Positions 1,428-62,470 of a stretch of DNA of 64,000 bases are shown here, piece by piece. Source of the stretch: Sedimentibacter saalensis (GTDB taxonomy: Bacteria; Bacillota; Clostridia; Tissierellales; Sedimentibacteraceae); contig NZ_VLKH01000001.1 in NCBI RefSeq assembly GCF_007830175.1, positions 124,001-188,000 on the forward strand. Direction: 5' to 3'. The notes under the pieces are model-generated. The model was given only the letters and a program-made list of their open reading frames with translations. It had not been told where the DNA came from and did not search any database. The translations under genes and the position numbers were made by a program. The stretch's first letter is position 1; every line of letters begins with the position of its first letter.

Positions 1428-1439
1428 AGTTATACATTA

Positions 1440-1452
1440 GAGGTCTTACCTT
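1440..1452. promoter_or_regulatory. Putative FadR-type operator 1
   Basis: The inverted repeat AGGT-CTT-ACCT (1441-1451) lies downstream of the -10 box. The same GGT-N3-ACC core, with the same CTT or AAG centre, occurs at 4161-4173 and 7626-7638 beside two other sigma-A promoters. FadR-subfamily GntR repressors typically bind short TGGT-N-ACCA palindromes, so the regulator at 6772-7470 is the likely ligand. Confidence 0.65.
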
Positions 1453-1474
1453 AATATAACTTTACGGAGGTATA

Positions 1475-2659
1475 ATGAAAAACAAATTCATATCAAAAAG
1501 ATACTGGAAAAATAACTCCACACCTATGGGCCAGGTGGATGAACTTGCTAAAAATTTCGATGATGTAATCAATTTAAGCCTTGGTGATCCTGATTTGATT
1601 ACTCACAACATCATAATTGATAACGCATTTAAGGATGCTAGGCAGGGACACACAAAGTATACGGATTTTAGAGGCGACCCTGAACTTAGATGCGAAATAG
1701 CAAAATTCTACAAAGAAGAATATGCACTTGACGTCCATGATAAAGAAATATTTGTAACAACAAGCGGATGTCTGGCAATGTACCTGGTTCTTGAAGCAAT
1801 TCTCGATGATGGCGATGAGGTCATATTGCAGGCACCATACTTCACTCCTTACTATCAGCAGGTTGAACTGGCAAGAGGAATTCCCGTGGAACTTTCCACC
1901 TATGAAGAAGATGATTTTCAAATAAGCTTTGATAAACTTGAAAAATTAATCAATGAAAGAACAAAAGCAATAATAATAAATTCCCCATGCAATCCCACAG
2001 GCAACATTCTGTCAAGACAAACACTTGAAAGCATCAGGGACATTGCAGTGAAGTATGACCTCATTGTTATATCCGATGATATTTATACTTCGTTCAGCTT
2101 CAACGAACCATTCATTCCTATTGCATCTATTGAAGGCATGAAGGAAAGAACAATAATAATAAACAGTTTCTCCAAGAACTTCACCATGACCGGATGGCGT
2201 ATAGGAAACATAATTGCACCTGGCTACATAATCAATGTAATTCAGCAGATAAATGAAAATCTTGTGTTTACTTCCCCTTCCATTTCTCAAAGAGGAGCCA
2301 TTCATGCCTTGAGAAACAGAAAAGAAATACAGCCTGAAATAATAAAAGAATACAAGGACCGCGTGTTTTATGCAGCTGACAGAATCAATCGCATACCAAA
2401 CATGTCTGTTATAAGCCCCAAGGGAACATTTTATCTGTTTGTAAACATCAAAAAAACAGGATTGAGTTCAATAGAAGCAAGCGATGCAATACTAAAGGAA
2501 GCTCATGTTCTGACAATACCGGGAATTGCATTTGGAGACTGCGGCGAAGGATATTTGAGACTTGCCTGCACCGTTGGTGTTGAAAAGCTTAAGGAAGCTT
2601 TTGACAGAATTGAAAAAATGGATATTTTTAAAATTAAAGGAGAACATCATGAACAATGA
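1475..2659 (+). CDS. PLP-dependent class I aminotransferase, copy 1
   Basis: A 394-residue fold-type I aminotransferase. The PLP site is clear: NPTGN at 173-177, the Schiff-base lysine K234 in SFSKNF, and the alpha-carboxylate-binding arginine R362 near the C-terminus. It should transfer an amino group between an amino acid and a 2-oxo acid in the cytoplasm; the amino donor cannot be read from the sequence. The start is ATG with GGAGG 5-6 nt upstream. The stop overlaps the transporter start by 11 bp, so the two are translationally coupled. It is a close paralogue of the gene at 4196, and several stretches of the C-terminal half are nearly identical in DNA. Likely controlled by the operator at 1440. 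Confidence 0.92.
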   Translation: MKNKFISKRYWKNNSTPMGQVDELAKNFDDVINLSLGDPDLITHNIIIDNAFKDARQGHTKYTDFRGDPELRCEIAKFYKEEYALDVHDKEIFVTTSGCLAMYLVLEAILDDGDEVILQAPYFTPYYQQVELARGIPVELSTYEEDDFQISFDKLEKLINERTKAIIINSPCNPTGNILSRQTLESIRDIAVKYDLIVISDDIYTSFSFNEPFIPIASIEGMKERTIIINSFSKNFTMTGWRIGNIIAPGYIINVIQQINENLVFTSPSISQRGAIHALRNRKEIQPEIIKEYKDRVFYAADRINRIPNMSVISPKGTFYLFVNIKKTGLSSIEASDAILKEAHVLTIPGIAFGDCGEGYLRLACTVGVEKLKEAFDRIEKMDIFKIKGEHHEQ

Positions 2660-4010
2660 CAATACAACAAAAATAGATTCTAAAAGCATAATGAAATTTG
2701 CAATACCATCAGCACTTGGAGTTTTTATATTTCTTTTCCCTCTGCCATGGAATGGTTCCGTAAACATACCAATAGGAATTTTATCCGAATGGCTGGCAGC
2801 CTTAATAGCTCCTGCTGCTCCAACTTTAATAACAATATTTATTCTGATATCTGCAATAATGACAGCAATTACTTCGTTACTTAAGCCTAAGGCAATTATT
2901 GACAACAAGCTTTTATCAAAACTTTTTACATCCAGCCCATTTTATCTGCTTTTTAAAATAATAGGTGCTGTGGTTGTTTTGATGGTTTATTTTAACGTAG
3001 GACCTGAGTACGTGATTTCCGGCGACACAGGTGGAACAATGCTGTCACTTTTAAAAACCCTGGTTGCATGGTTTTTTGCAGCATCATTTCTGATTCCTCT
3101 CTTGATGGATTTCGGCATTATGGACTACACAGGAACATTGGTCAGAAATTTTACTCAGCCTCTTTTCAAACTTCCTGGCAGATCTGCAATTGACCTTCTT
3201 GCATCCTGGGTTGGAAACTGCAACGTGGGAGTTGTTCTTACAACAACACAGTACGAACAGGGATATTACACAGCCAGAGAAGCAATAACAATTGCCACAT
3301 GTTTTTCTGCAGTATCTCTTCCTTTTTGTCTTGTTATTGCTGCACTTTTAAAAGTTGAACACCTGTTCATTCCGTTTTATGCAATACTCACAATAACAGG
3401 AATATTGAGCGTAGTAATAATGACAAGAATTCCGCCTTTGAGCAAATATCCCAATGAATACTATGCTCCTGTAGGCAAGCAGGTAAATGAAGTTGAACCG
3501 CAAGGAATAACAAAATCCCAATGGGCTCTGAAACTTGCTGTGGAAAGAGCCGCAACAGCACCAGATGCCAAGGGTGTTTTAAACAAAGGATTTGAAATGT
3601 TTATGGGCATTGTATTCCAGCTCACTCCTCTTGTAATGTCCTTTGGAACCATCGCCTGCATACTTGCTACTTACACACCCATATTTAACTGGCTCTCAGT
3701 ACCATTTGGATACTACCTGCAGATGCTTGGTGTAGAAGAAGCATTTGCTGCAGCTCCTGCAACCATCGTTGGATTTGTAGATATGTTCCTTCCTGCTGTC
3801 CTTGCTGCAAACATCGTGTCCTTAAAAACAAGGTTTATAATAGGAATATTGTCACTGGTTCAAATAATTTACATGACAGAAGTGGGAACTCTTATAATTA
3901 CATCAAAAATGCCTGTTGATTTCAAAGGAGTGCTTATATTGTTCCTTGAAAAAACTATCATAGCCCTTCCTATTATAGTTCTTCTCACAAACATATTCGG
4001 CATAGCATAA
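2649..4010 (+). CDS. YjiH-family (Gate domain) membrane transporter, copy 1
   Basis: A 453-residue polytopic membrane protein of the YjiH type, which carries nucleoside-recognition (Gate) domains. About ten or eleven hydrophobic segments are visible, with the family-like N-terminus MKFAIPSALGVFIFLFPLPW. The ATG at 2649 is preferred over upstream in-frame codons because AGGAG lies just before it and the paralogue starts at the same place. It overlaps the aminotransferase stop by 11 bp. The substrate is unknown for the family; linkage to an aminotransferase suggests an amino acid or its keto/hydroxy acid, which is inference. Over most of its length the DNA is nearly identical to the copy at 5372. 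Confidence 0.85.
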   Translation: MNNDNTTKIDSKSIMKFAIPSALGVFIFLFPLPWNGSVNIPIGILSEWLAALIAPAAPTLITIFILISAIMTAITSLLKPKAIIDNKLLSKLFTSSPFYLLFKIIGAVVVLMVYFNVGPEYVISGDTGGTMLSLLKTLVAWFFAASFLIPLLMDFGIMDYTGTLVRNFTQPLFKLPGRSAIDLLASWVGNCNVGVVLTTTQYEQGYYTAREAITIATCFSAVSLPFCLVIAALLKVEHLFIPFYAILTITGILSVVIMTRIPPLSKYPNEYYAPVGKQVNEVEPQGITKSQWALKLAVERAATAPDAKGVLNKGFEMFMGIVFQLTPLVMSFGTIACILATYTPIFNWLSVPFGYYLQMLGVEEAFAAAPATIVGFVDMFLPAVLAANIVSLKTRFIIGILSLVQIIYMTEVGTLIITSKMPVDFKGVLILFLEKTIIALPIIVLLTNIFGIA

Positions 4011-4013
4011 TAG

Positions 4014-4047
4014 AAGGCGTTTCGTATAATCAGCGAAACGCCTTTTT
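4014..4047 (+). terminator. Terminator of operon 1
   Basis: AAGGCGTTTCG and CGAAACGCCTT form an 11-bp stem followed by a T-run, 4 bp after the transporter stop. Confidence 0.9.
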
Positions 4048-4118
4048 GTATGCCTATTTTTGTCACCATAAATTTTTAATTTTTTCACCAAAAAATATAT
4101 TTGAAAACGAAAAAACGC

Positions 4119-4146
4119 TTGCATAATTATTTGACTGTGTTATAAT
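4119..4146 (+). promoter_or_regulatory. Sigma-A promoter of aminotransferase operon 2
   Basis: TTGCAT at 4119-4124, a 16-bp spacer and TATAAT at 4141-4146. The promoter and operator arrangement matches that of operon 1, so regulatory DNA was duplicated with the genes. Confidence 0.7.
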
Positions 4147-4160
4147 TATGCTATGGATTA

Positions 4161-4173
4161 GTGGTCTTACCTT
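4161..4173. promoter_or_regulatory. Putative FadR-type operator 2
   Basis: GTGGTCTTACCTT, core GGT-CTT-ACC. It occupies nearly the same place relative to the -10 box as operator 1. Neighbouring promoter DNA differs more than the operator does, which suggests the site is conserved. Confidence 0.68.
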
Positions 4174-4195
4174 AAAACAACAATGGAGGTGAAAT

Positions 4196-5356
4196 ATGAA
4201 ACACAAATTTATTGCAAAAAGATATTGGAAAGACAAATCAACACCAATGGGTCAGGTAGATGAGCTGGCTAAAAATTATGATGATGTGATTAATCTTAGT
4301 CTAGGTGACCCTGATTTGATTACACATGACATCATTATTGACAATGCATTTAAGGATGCAAGACAAGGTCATACGAAGTACACAGATTTCAGAGGCGACC
4401 CTGTACTTAGAAAGGAAATCATCAACTATTACCGAGAGGAATACGATTTACCGGTAAAGGATGAAGAAATATTTGTAGCTGCCAGCGGATGTCTAGGAAT
4501 GTACCTTGCTCTTGAAGCAATTCTTGATGATGGTGACGAAGTCATTCTGCAAGCCCCATTCTTCACACCATATCCCCAACAGGTGGAACTAGCAAGAGGA
4601 ATACCTGTTCCTTTAAACACATATGAAGAGGAAGATTTTCAGATTAACATTAAAAGACTTGAGAGCCTTATTACGGAAAGAACAAAAGCCTTAGTTATTA
4701 ATTCACCCAGCAATCCCACAGGCAACATCCTGTCAAGACAAACACTTGAAAGCATCAGGAACATTGCAGTAAAGTATGACCTCATTGTTATATCCGATGA
4801 TATTTATACTTCATTCAGCTTCAATGAACCTTTTATTCCTATTGCTTCAATTGAAGGAATGAAGGAAAGGACAATAATAATAAACAGTTTCTCCAAAAAC
4901 TTCACCATGACCGGATGGAGGATAGGAAATATAATAGCCCCAGACTACATTATAAAGGTTATTCAGCAGATAAATGAAAACGTTGTATTCACTGCTCCAT
5001 CTATTTCTCAAAGAGGTGCAATACATGCTCTGAGAAACAGAAATGAAATACAGCCCGAAATGATCAATGAATACAAGAATCGTGTGTTTTATGCAGCAGA
5101 CAGAATCAACCGCATTCCAAACATGTCTGTCATAAGCCCCAAGGGAACATTTTATCTGTTCGTTAACATCAAAAAAACAGGATTGAGCTCAATTGAAGCA
5201 AGCGATGCTATACTAAAGGAAGCTCATGTTCTGACAATACCGGGAATTGCATTTGGAGACTGCGGCGAAGGATACGTAAGAATCGCCTGTACATTAGGCA
5301 TTGACAAACTAAGGGAAGCATTTGACAGAATTGAAAAAATGAATATTTTCAAATAA
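4196..5356 (+). CDS. PLP-dependent class I aminotransferase, copy 2
   Basis: A 386-residue paralogue of the enzyme at 1475 with the same PLP-site motifs (NPTGN, SFSKNF lysine at about 234, C-terminal arginine in YVRIACT). The two proteins differ mainly in the middle: copy 2 has FTPYPQQVE and NSPSNPTG where copy 1 has FTPYYQQVE and NSPCNPTG. These positions lie near the active site in this fold, so the substrate range may differ, which is inference. The start is ATG after GGAGGTG. Unlike copy 1, it does not overlap the next gene; a 15-bp gap with its own GGAGG precedes the transporter. Likely controlled by operator 2. Confidence 0.92.
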   Translation: MKHKFIAKRYWKDKSTPMGQVDELAKNYDDVINLSLGDPDLITHDIIIDNAFKDARQGHTKYTDFRGDPVLRKEIINYYREEYDLPVKDEEIFVAASGCLGMYLALEAILDDGDEVILQAPFFTPYPQQVELARGIPVPLNTYEEEDFQINIKRLESLITERTKALVINSPSNPTGNILSRQTLESIRNIAVKYDLIVISDDIYTSFSFNEPFIPIASIEGMKERTIIINSFSKNFTMTGWRIGNIIAPDYIIKVIQQINENVVFTAPSISQRGAIHALRNRNEIQPEMINEYKNRVFYAADRINRIPNMSVISPKGTFYLFVNIKKTGLSSIEASDAILKEAHVLTIPGIAFGDCGEGYVRIACTLGIDKLREAFDRIEKMNIFK

Positions 5357-5371
5357 AAATGGAGGCTACCT

Positions 5372-6730
5372 ATGGAATACGATGTAAATAATTTGAATAA
5401 AAAAAGTATCATGAAATTTGCAATACCATCAGCACTTGGAGTTTTTATATTTCTTTTCCCCCTGCCATGGAATGGTTCCGTAAACATACCAATAGGAATT
5501 TTATCCGAATGGCTGGCAGCCTTAATAGCTCCTGTTGCTCCAACCTTAATAACAGTGTTTATTTTAATATCTGCAATAATGACAGCAATTACTTCGTTAC
5601 TTAAGCCTAAGGCAATTCTTGACAACAAGCTTTTATCAAAACTTTTTACATCCAGCCCATTTTACCTGTTTTTTAAAATAATAGGTGCTGTGGTTGTTTT
5701 AATGGTTTATTTTAACGTAGGACCTGAATACGTGATTTCCGGCGACACAGGCGGAACAATGCTGTCACTTTTAAAAACTCTTGTTGCATGGTTTTTTGCA
5801 GCATCATTTTTGATTCCTCTCTTGATGGATTTTGGCATTATGGACTACACAGGAACATTGGTCAGAAATTTTACTCAGCCTCTTTTCAAACTTCCTGGCA
5901 GATCTGCAATTGACCTTCTTGCATCCTGGGTTGGAAACTGCAACGTGGGAGTTGTTCTTACAACAACACAGTACGAACAGGGATACTACACAGCAAGAGA
6001 AGCAATAACAATTGCCACATGTTTTTCAGCAGTATCTCTTCCGTTTTGTCTTGTTATTGCTGCACTGCTAAAGGTTGACCACCTGTTCATTCCGTTTTAT
6101 GCAATACTCACAATAACAGGAATACTGAGCGTAGTAATTATGACAAGAATTCCACCTTTGAGCAAGTATCCCAATGAATATTATGCTCCTGTAGGTAAGC
6201 AGGTAAATGAAGTAGAACCGCAAGGAATAACAAAATCCCAATGGGCTCTGAAGCTTGCTGTGGAAAGAGCCGCAGCAGCACCTGATGTGAAGGGTGTTTT
6301 AAATAAAGGCATTGACATGTTCTTAGGCATTGTATTCCAGCTTACTCCTCTTGTTATGTCCTTTGGAACCATTGCCTGCATACTTGCTACATACACACCT
6401 ATATTTCAATGGCTCTCAGTACCGTTTGGATACTACCTGCAGATGCTTGGTGTAGAAGAAGCATTTGCTGCAGCTCCTGCGACCATAGTTGGATTTGTGG
6501 ATATGTTCCTTCCTGCTGTCCTTGCTGCAAACATCGTGTCCTTAAAAACAAGGTTTATAATAGGAATATTGTCACTGGTTCAAATAATTTACATGACAGA
6601 AGTTGGAACCCTTATGATTACATCAAAAATGCCTGTTGATTTCAAAGGAGTGCTTGCTTTATTCCTTGAAAAAACAATAATAGCCCTTCCTATTATAGTT
6701 CTTCTCACAAACATATTCGGCATAGCATAA
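5372..6730 (+). CDS. YjiH-family (Gate domain) membrane transporter, copy 2
   Basis: A 452-residue polytopic membrane protein, nearly identical to the transporter at 2649 apart from the first dozen residues and scattered substitutions such as a conservative Glu-to-Asp change. DNA identity is visibly higher between the transporters than between the two aminotransferases. That points to recent gene conversion or strong constraint on the transporter while the enzymes diverge. Start ATG with GGAGG upstream. The substrate is unknown. It is the last gene of operon 2. Confidence 0.85.
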   Translation: MEYDVNNLNKKSIMKFAIPSALGVFIFLFPLPWNGSVNIPIGILSEWLAALIAPVAPTLITVFILISAIMTAITSLLKPKAILDNKLLSKLFTSSPFYLFFKIIGAVVVLMVYFNVGPEYVISGDTGGTMLSLLKTLVAWFFAASFLIPLLMDFGIMDYTGTLVRNFTQPLFKLPGRSAIDLLASWVGNCNVGVVLTTTQYEQGYYTAREAITIATCFSAVSLPFCLVIAALLKVDHLFIPFYAILTITGILSVVIMTRIPPLSKYPNEYYAPVGKQVNEVEPQGITKSQWALKLAVERAAAAPDVKGVLNKGIDMFLGIVFQLTPLVMSFGTIACILATYTPIFQWLSVPFGYYLQMLGVEEAFAAAPATIVGFVDMFLPAVLAANIVSLKTRFIIGILSLVQIIYMTEVGTLMITSKMPVDFKGVLALFLEKTIIALPIIVLLTNIFGIA

Positions 6731-14982: not shown

Positions 14983-15130
14983 ATAAAAACCCTCTACAAA
15001 GAGAGGGCAATATACATATACCGTCTCCTCATCTCCCAAAGAATCCTTTGTCGGAATTAGCACCTTTCAGCATACTGCAGGTTGCCGAGACATCACAGGG
15101 CCGATCCCTCCGTCTCTCTTGATAAGAAGT
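14983..15130 (-). promoter_or_regulatory. SAM-I (S-box) riboswitch with terminator
   Basis: Read on the minus strand, the element starts CTTATCAAGAGAGACGGAGG, continues with ATCGGCCCTGTGATGTCTCGG, GGTGCTAATTCC and ends GATGAGGAGACGG, the conserved S-box landmarks. The terminator is CCCTCT...AGAGGG followed by a T-rich run at about 14983-15007. It should switch off the downstream operon (deacylase, tcdA, metNIQ) when SAM is bound. Confidence 0.95.
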
Positions 15131-20242: not shown

Positions 20243-20338
20243 AATACAAAAAAACCACCTGGACGCAGCCCAGGCGGTCGACTTTTAAATTTTCACACTC
20301 CCTCGTGGTGACCCACAATTCCGCCAGTCATGTGATAA
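20243..20338 (-). promoter_or_regulatory. ZTP riboswitch (pfl motif) with overlapping terminator
   Basis: Minus-strand landmarks are GACTGGCGGAA, GTGGGTCACCACGAGGGAG and the conserved CCGCCTGGGC. CCGCCTGG also pairs with CCAGGTGG, followed by seven T (about 20250-20275), so the aptamer 3' part is the terminator 5' arm. ZTP or ZMP binding should prevent termination and raise pflB-pflA when 10-formyl-tetrahydrofolate is short. Confidence 0.9.
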
Positions 20339-20341
20339 CTC

Positions 20342-36110: not shown

Positions 36111-36300
36111 GTAGGGGAGGACCTCGTGTCCTCCCGCGGGCGGGCACAAGACGAGTCCACTGAAAAACTATACATTTATTCACTGTCATTCTGAGGCATA
36201 GCCGAAGAATCTCATGTTTTCAACAAAGATGAGATCCTTCACTGTCGTTCAGGATGACAGGAAAGACTTTTTCAGTGACGTCCACAAGACCCGCCCCTAC
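36111..36300. repeat. R2 repeat interrupted by R1 copy c
   Basis: The R2 left half GTAGGGGAGGACC...GTCCTCCCG is at 36111-36136. The right half starts GGGCGGGCACAAGAC and is split by R1 copy c, resuming as ACAAGACCCGCCCCTAC and ending at 36300. Without the insertion it would be an ordinary R2 element. Intergenic between the O-antigen ligase-like gene and pyrG. Confidence 0.85.
36153..36282. mobile_element. R1 copy c: MITE-like insertion with 8-bp target duplication
   Basis: A 130-bp unit. CACTGAAAAA at 36158-36167 and TTTTTCAGTG at 36268-36277 are perfect 10-bp inverted ends. The interior carries the R1 hairpin GTCATTCTGAGG...GAATCTCAT / ATGAGATCC...CAGGATGAC. CACAAGAC is repeated directly at 36145-36152 and 36283-36290. 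The 120 bp between the inverted ends are identical to copy d (61812-61931) except for one base. No coding capacity, so movement would need a transposase elsewhere. Confidence 0.8.
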
Positions 36301-53704: not shown

Positions 53705-53727
53705 TCATAAAAATTAATCAACAAAAG

Positions 53728-53992
53728 CTGTGACGGAGAAAAAACTTTTCAATATGACAAGTTACAGAGAGTCGGCGTACGCTGAAAGCCGATACTGTCA
53801 AGAAAACACACTCGCTCCAGAGCTGATCGTCTGAAAACAGTAGGATGATACGTTGCCCCGTTAAAGGCTAAGATTTGTCAGAATCTGAATCGAGTGGTTT
53901 AGTGTATTTTTTTATACATAAACAATATGGGTGGTACCGCGGATATATCCGTCCCTGAGAGCTAATGCTTTCATGGACGGATTTTTTATTTC
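53728..53992 (+). promoter_or_regulatory. T-box leader, probably leucine-specific
   Basis: The T-box bulge sequence GGGTGGTACCGCGG is at about 53929-53942. The terminator ATCCGTCC...GGACGGATTTTTT ends near 53987. Two possible CTC (Leu) specifier triplets lie at 53811-53813 and 53815-53817 in the stem I region. Uncharged tRNA-Leu should pair with both sites and let transcription continue into leuA. Confidence 0.93.
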
Positions 53993-61732: not shown

Positions 61733-61735
61733 ATA

Positions 61736-61757
61736 AAAAGCTATGTTTCCATAGCTT
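61736..61757 (+). terminator. Terminator stem after the YczE-like gene
   Basis: AAGCTATG-tttc-CATAGCTT. The T-run stops after two T, where a repeat-associated ATTGACAAAAC follows, so the terminator may have been interrupted. Confidence 0.6.
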
Positions 61758-61788: not shown

Positions 61789-62002
61789 GTAGGGGCGGAT
61801 CTTGTAGAGGCCACTGAAAAACTATACATTTATTCACTGTCATTCTGAGGCGTAGCCGAAGAATCTCATGTTTTCAACAAAGATGAGATCCTTCACTGTC
61901 GTTCAGGATGACAGGAAAGACTTTTTCAGTGACGTCATCTTGTATCCGCCCGTATTATTAAATAATTTTGTTATCTTCGGGAGGACAGTAGTCCTCCCCT
62001 AC
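61789..62002. repeat. R2 repeat interrupted by R1 copy d, overlapping the thioesterase end
   Basis: The left half GTAGGGGCGGATCTTGT is split by R1 copy d and resumes ATCTTGTATCCGCCCG; the right half CGGGAGGACAGTAGTCCTCCCCTAC ends at 62002. Bases 61958-62002 are also the last 14 codons and the stop of the thioesterase gene. Confidence 0.87.
61806..61936. mobile_element. R1 copy d: MITE-like insertion with 7-bp target duplication
   Basis: A 131-bp unit with inverted ends CACTGAAAAA (61812-61821) and TTTTTCAGTG (61922-61931). The 120 bp they bound differ from copy c at one base. ATCTTGT is duplicated at 61799-61805 and 61937-61943. It lies in the R2 loop like copy c, but in opposite orientation relative to R2. 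Confidence 0.82.
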
Positions 62003-62470
62003 ATTTTCCCTTGTCGACTTTCTTGCCAAATATCTTTGTTTTCCTTCTTCAAAAAGTTTTTCTTCTTCTTCGTTCACAAGCTTCAATGGCGGTACAGCAA
62101 CAGGTTTCCCATTTTTATCCAGGGCAACAAATGTAAAATAACCTGTCAATGCAACCTTGGGAGGTTCATCAAACCTCAGGTCCTCCACCATAACCGTTGC
62201 CAGAACCTCAATGGAACTTATTCCAACGAATGTAACCTGGCATATACACTTAACATAATTACCTATATGTATGGGAAGATGAAATTCCAGACTATCTACT
62301 CGCGCAGTAACAACGCTTGACCTGCAATGTCTCATTGCAGCTATACCTGATGCGTTGTCCATCATTTTCATTATTTCGCCGCCGTGGACATTTCCTGCTA
62401 TGTTGGCATGCTCCGGCTGCATGAGACTTCCCATTATTATTTTAGATTGTTCTACTGTCTTGGCTTCTAT
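61958..62470 (-). CDS. Hotdog acyl-CoA thioesterase with probable AUA start and R2-encoded tail
   Basis: About 170 residues if started at the ATA codon at 62470. That codon lies 6 nt after AGAGGTG and begins IEAKTVEQSKIIMGSLMQP, the usual N-terminus of this family. The in-frame ATG at 62434 has no ribosome-binding site and would cut the first 12 residues. The fold shows PEHANIAGNVHGGEIMKMMD and RVDSLEFHLPIHIGN. It hydrolyses acyl-CoA to acid and CoA. The final VGEDYCPPEDNKII comes from the R2 repeat. Confidence 0.83.
   Translation of the reverse strand: MEAKTVEQSKIIMGSLMQPEHANIAGNVHGGEIMKMMDNASGIAAMRHCRSSVVTARVDSLEFHLPIHIGNYVKCICQVTFVGISSIEVLATVMVEDLRFDEPPKVALTGYFTFVALDKNGKPVAVPPLKLVNEEEEKLFEEGKQRYLARKSTRENVGEDYCPPEDNKII

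Follow-up and report, generated by a model that had tools for sequence, protein, structure and literature searches.

How a short non-coding element comes to occupy the same position in two separate copies of another repeat, and in opposite orientations, is the question raised by a stretch of 64,000 nucleotides from Sedimentibacter saalensis (contig NZ_VLKH01000001.1, positions 124,001 to 188,000 of the forward strand), hereafter the window. At two loci of the window, the element R1 is found inside the repeat R2 (copies c and d), and a first-pass annotation had read these composites as two independent insertions into one site. The insertion pattern of R1 extends beyond copies c and d, and it is followed here through the genome of this organism and those of its relatives.

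Copies c and d and Their R2 Hosts

Copy d of R1 (61807..61936, plus strand) is a 130-bp non-coding element with the inverted ends GAGGCCACTGAAAAAC / GACGTCACTGAAAAAG and the core TGTCATTCTGAG..ATGACA. This copy is flanked by an 8-bp target duplication, ATCTTGTA, present on the left (61799..61806, plus strand) and on the right (61937..61944, plus strand). Its host is an R2 unit, a GTAG-tagged REP pair that extends with R1 inside from the GTAG end to the CTAC end (61789..62002, plus strand). Hairpin 1 of this unit, consisting of two arms (61793-61798 and 61945-61951) and a loop, is split by R1, and hairpin 2 (61979-61998) is intact and followed by the closing CTAC (61999-62002). A terminator-like hairpin, AAAAAGCTATG-TTTC-CATAGCTT (61735..61757, plus strand), is located nearby. 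On the other side, the 3' end of a minus-strand ORF (61958-62434) enters the R2 unit, its last residues and stop codon being encoded by the repeat; we take the product of this ORF to resemble an acyl-CoA thioesterase.

Copy c (36153..36282, plus strand) lies between two copies of CACAAGAC (36145..36152 and 36283..36290, both on the plus strand) in an R2 unit of the minus strand (36111..36300) composed of two closely spaced REP hairpins, of which the one at 36115-36135 is intact. Copies c and d match without gaps at 128 of 130 positions; their close similarity had been recognized in the first-pass annotation, although its figure of 119 of 120 has to be corrected. The distance between both copies is 25,654 bp from start to start, in agreement with the 25 kb proposed earlier. 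The duplication of copy c, CACAAGAC, is GTCTTGTG on the opposite strand, as originally described, whereas that of copy d, which had been given as 7 bp, comprises 8 bp. Removal of R1 and one duplication restores the hairpin GTAGGGGCGG-ATCTTGTA-TCCGCCC for copy d and, on the other strand, GTAGGGGCGG-GTCTTGTG-CCCGCCC for copy c. The targets, formerly said to overlap in R2, go beyond mere overlap and occupy exactly the same eight hairpin positions, and R1 is seen in opposite orientations relative to R2, as had also been noticed.

R2 itself is a pair of GC-rich hairpins that reads from GTAG to CTAC. In the genome of S. saalensis, 123 hairpins of the form GGGCGG(N4-14)CCGCCC and 107 of the form GGGAGG(N4-14)CCTCCC are found, while the control gave 1 match per strand for each of them. 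Moreover, of 18 reconstructed sites, 15 have GTAG next to the left arm. With its tag, short palindrome, and high copy number, R2 fits a GTAG-tagged REP pair.

R1 Copies in the Genome of Sedimentibacter saalensis

The search for R1 in the own genome yielded at least 45 matches (scoring covered 40 of 168 first-look candidates). The young copies are L001-L013, i.e., the 13 listed at an identity of at least 94%, with L001 being copy d, and an older set is formed by eight copies, L014-L021, with 86-90% identity. The counts of 13, 18, 19, and 29 used throughout exclude L172, L173, L174-L178, and L022, the latter having no definable ends. R1 is short and multicopy, carries no transposase gene, and displays terminal inverted repeats and a target duplication, which are the features of a MITE.

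Among the listed matches of at least 94% identity, all 13 young copies are situated between R2 hairpin arms, at the hairpin centre. Twelve of them share one R2 position, and L012 is shifted, in a 20-nt hairpin. Ten of the 13 carry the terminal inverted repeat CACTGAAAAA without a mismatch at either end (the exceptions being L011, L012, and L013). The duplication matches at 8/8 bp in 10 young copies, the other three being L009 and L011 with 7/8 and L013 with 6/8; across the R2-type sites of S. saalensis and the related genome G003, it matches at 8/8 bp in 16 of 19. The recent activity of R1 suggested in the first-pass annotation is supported.

The older copies are found in a wider range of sites. 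L014, L015, L017, and L020 are located in R2-type hairpins, L021 in a hairpin of non-R2 sequence (ACAACCAT..TGGTTGT), and L018 and L019 in the middle of a palindromic repeat, R4 (GTCA..GAACCGTC..TGAC), where L016, with one damaged end, probably lies as well. R4, as GTCA..GAACCGTCC..TGAC, occurs at 9 places (e.g., G000:C3:233983-234012); its pairing spans only about 4 bp, and R4 sites score 2 or 3 in the one-mismatch stem test described below. Thus, L016, L018, L019, and L021, together with L028, are located elsewhere than at the single REP position of the young copies. The site of L028 (83% identity) was examined and no clean one was found. In L173 (81% identity, judged by eye and unscored), one end lies at an R2 loop and the other is rearranged, and in the partial matches L174-L178 clear R1 arms on both sides were not seen.

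A second nested element, with an R1 core and ends like CAGACTATTGACAAAC / GTTTGTCATCAACCTG, is present at positions 1181-1360 of the window and at L025, L040, and L061. This element is flanked by copies of terminator-like hairpins, with exact left/right repeats of 18, 16, 20, and 13 bp. Considering 10 cases, the repeats reach at least 13 bp in 4, 12 bp in L060, and 7 to 9 bp in five, and this element may duplicate whole terminators upon insertion. At 1431-5701, blocks of direct repeats, spaced by about 2,720 bp and 76-96% identical, suggest that a gene region was duplicated in tandem. The window also gave matches to a T-box (53721-53959), a SAM riboswitch (15026-15128), and a ZMP/ZTP riboswitch (20261-20341), all above the gathering score.

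Empty Sites and Copies in Related Genomes

The ortholog of the d site in the related genome G022 consists of R2 with one ATCTTGTA and without R1. In G003, the d locus contains neither R2 nor R1, and the matching terminator-like hairpin stands alone. These two states agree with the succession of terminator, R2, and R1, unless R2 was lost in G003. The comparison for presence and absence, which the first-pass annotation had proposed between strains, was decisive for copy d; at locus c, G022 has an R2 with a different loop at a different place, and the two G003 matches lie at contig ends. The same annotation had held that identical R2 arms would speak for the copying of one composite as a whole. 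This was examined in copy d (L001) and L002, where R1 is identical but the flanking arms differ, agreeing at 85% across 47 nt and at 80% across 76 nt. Together with the empty R2 of G022, this upholds independent insertion.

In the class-wide search, with two candidates scored per genome, R1 matches were obtained in 4 of 391 genomes, the own genome included, and the plasmid and phage collections gave no R1 match. In G003, L035 and L050 are located in R2 loops, whereas L172 is close to an intact R2 hairpin but outside its loop, and counts against the targeting reading. In G115, a genome from a different family of this class, the two copies listed (L167 and L170) are inserted in loops of terminator-like hairpins with long stems, flanking runs of A and T, and a sequence unrelated to R2; the duplication of L170 has 9 matching bases. 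L168 (G168) shows, by eye, the arms ACGGCATTA / TAACGCCGT around the element, with no clear duplication seen, and L169 (G141) is located at the base of a terminator. No clean duplication or site was found for L034 (G022) and L039 (G035). Most insertions of R1 fall at the centre of repeats that form hairpins and, among the relatives, also at that of terminator hairpins.

Loop Sequence, Register, and Palindrome

In all 18 copies with TTGT or TCGT loops, which include both orientations, the first base of the duplication is the one that follows the final G of the left arm, and in L017 it is the loop motif itself that is placed one base further on. The binomial figures on this register treat the sites as independent draws and indicate "far from chance" only. 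With one start in 18 of 18 loop-oriented copies, and with other members in unrelated hairpins, the claim of a site- or structure-specific insertion is supported in general. The orientation of R1 with respect to the loop strand is the same in 3 and opposite in 9 of the 12 classified young copies (p 0.15), and the same in 4 and opposite in 14 of all 18 classified copies, figures that are not used here as evidence.

TTGT loops are found in 11 of 13 young copies versus 37 of 100 listed intact hairpins (Fisher p 0.0018), the latter being the first listed of 230, with 50 per type. This excess implies that the loop sequence matters and that the choice depends on more than the hairpin shape. Moreover, L012-L014 lie centrally in hairpins of the GGGAGG type, whose loops are TCGT or CTGCTG. 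Since hairpins other than R2 are likewise entered at their centre, the R1 family does not require the R2 sequence.

The palindromic nature of the targets is reflected in their stems. Taking for each insertion whichever of its two duplication copies scored better, perfectly paired stems of 7 bp or more, centred no more than 1 bp from the duplication, are present in 11 of 13 young copies versus 166 of 63,964 window positions (0.26%). The stems of L003 and L004 are interrupted, and L004 folded alone favours a different pairing. When one mismatch is allowed, the stem reaches 7 bp or more at 20 of 29 scored sites versus 1.7% of 20,000 random window positions; these 29 sites comprise 26 from the own genome and its relatives plus L167, L169, and L170, with six centres set by hand. 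Below 7 bp in this test are L004, L016, L017, L018, L019, L028, L034, L039, and L169. Recognition of a cruciform or hairpin by the R1 transposase is plausible on these sequence grounds.

Search for the Transposase

PF01609 and PF00872 had no match in the own genome, and 49 transposase loci of relatives, several of them cut by contig ends, displayed no R1-like end pair with up to 2 mismatches per end. The end pattern was matched in 13 of 27 genomes of the family; almost all matches in the own genome are R1 copies, and those elsewhere are mostly single. Pairs of CACTGAAAAA located about 1 kb apart (L031 and L032) or 175 bp apart (L033) were rejected as an autonomous partner of R1, as they lie in or around ordinary reading frames or plain sequence in which no transposase was recognized by eye. 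Beside other non-MITE places of CACTGAAAAA, 37 stretches of about 2.2 kb (L130-L166) contain a weak second end, with up to 3 mismatches, in 8 cases, that of L137 being partly R1 itself. The 10 ORFs scanned from 7 of those 8 loci (all but L137) matched only non-transposase Pfam families. The transposase that moves R1 would be a DDE-type candidate, suggested by the ends and duplications of R1.

Proposed Mechanism and Alternative Explanations

R1 is probably a MITE moved in trans by a DDE-type transposase, which inserts it at palindrome dyads with a preference for the loop sequence. The ends of R1, its duplications, its dyad position, and the empty ortholog are direct observations. We infer the DDE class from the terminal inverted repeats and the 8-bp target duplications; the action in trans and the recognition of the hairpin or palindrome itself, beyond the loop sequence, would be further properties of this enzyme. 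Supplied in trans, the transposase would cut the dyad of a palindrome with an 8-bp stagger, preferably within the RYCTTGTR loop of REP hairpins of the GTAG type. By picking palindromes, it would let R1 spread without striking genes. Regarding copy d, R2 would have been established beside the terminator-like hairpin, and R1 would subsequently have entered the R2 loop, duplicating ATCTTGTA.

A transposase that reads the linear sequence GGGCGG-RYCTTGTR-YCCGCCC, the hairpin being incidental, would also explain the TTGT loops of 11 of the 13 young copies and the single start in 18 of 18. Nevertheless, pure sequence recognition is rather unlikely, since central insertion is also observed in the GGGAGG hairpins of L012-L014, in R4, in the hairpin of L021, and in the terminator-like loops of G115. 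It could further be argued that R1 inserts widely and persists only in dispensable intergenic repeats, given that R2 and terminators are mostly intergenic and that insertions there should presumably be harmless. However, intergenic DNA can be expected to exceed hairpin loops, and such a survival filter would neither yield one start in 18 of 18 copies nor place every one of the 13 young copies at the centre of a hairpin, which makes it very improbable as the cause of the pattern.

The role of R2 deserves separate consideration, since R2 is itself multicopy and could carry R1 along, in such a way that composites of both would be copied whole via recombination or REP mobilisation. This is extremely improbable, because identical R1 copies are found in arms that are 80-85% identical, in different loops, and in both orientations. 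For copy d it is refuted by the R2 of G022, empty and with one target copy, and the unlike arms together with this empty site rule it out as the source of c and d. Finally, R1 could be mobilised through single-stranded hairpins by an HUH-type enzyme (RAYT or IS200-like), in accordance with the hairpin nature of its targets and with the association of GTAG REPs with RAYT enzymes described in PMC3733652. Nonetheless, the 8/8-bp duplications at 16 of 19 R2-type sites and the inverted repeats at the ends of R1 agree with a staggered cut of both strands. To our knowledge, HUH elements make no such target duplications, and their involvement is highly improbable.

Beyond the movement of R1 by a DDE-type transposase, a broader proposal can be made tentatively, as a possibility that falls short of being likely: R1 would represent a MITE family of several bacterial families of the class, whose transposase targets extruded hairpins (cruciforms) in a structure-guided DDE transposition. 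If this were true, REPs and terminators of unrelated sequence would constitute safe havens. The 13 young insertions, several older ones, and the empty ortholog provide a natural data set on the question of whether a cut-and-paste enzyme reads hairpins by their shape and illustrate how nested mobile repeats (terminator, REP, and MITE) accumulate between genes. Moreover, the R1 system could point to insertion tools for non-coding palindromes.

Comparison with Known Systems

R2 resembles the superfamily of GTAG-tagged REPs and the REP dimers of Di Nocera et al. 2013 (PMC3733652): it has GTAG at one end and a short stem, exceeds 100 copies, and forms opposed pairs that close with CTAC. However, the terms "Clostridi" and "Firmicutes" are absent from the main text of that work, whereas the host of R2 belongs to the Clostridia.

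With bacterial MITEs, as presented in the available parts of the review PMC10969869, R1 shares its short length, non-coding nature, inverted-repeat ends, target duplications, and mostly intergenic location. It differs from them in that no parent IS was found and in its targeting of palindrome centres, which was not met in those parts of the review. The same source reports that IS1111 recognises a GTAG REP within a MITE and that pneumococcal repeats insert into one another. In the accessible portion of the open-licence literature on the insertion of MITEs and IS into hairpins or terminators, REP-targeting IS were encountered and no MITE with R1-like targeting was recognised; the papers listed in literature searches with the core and end sequences of R1 are unrelated, judging by their titles.

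The closest parallel is found in the IS elements from five IS families that target REPs, six of which (ISPsy8, ISRm22, ISPpu9, ISPpu10, ISPa11, and ISRm19) have every copy in a REP, according to the text available from Tobes and Pareja 2006 (PMC1525189). The young copies of R1 behave like these type 1 REP-associated IS, as they are inserted in a REP, at one position in 12 of 13, and lie on its axis of symmetry, as do ISPsy8 and ISRm22. Nevertheless, type 1 IS carry transposases, and their direct repeats, where given in that text, are absent (ISPa11) or of 2, 3, or 6 bp. Unlike them, R1 contains no gene, generates an 8-bp duplication, and belongs to a family that is also present in R4 palindromes and terminator-like hairpins. 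Thus, the targeting of REPs by IS was already known, and R1 adds to it the MITE form, the 8-bp duplication, and a wider range of palindromes.
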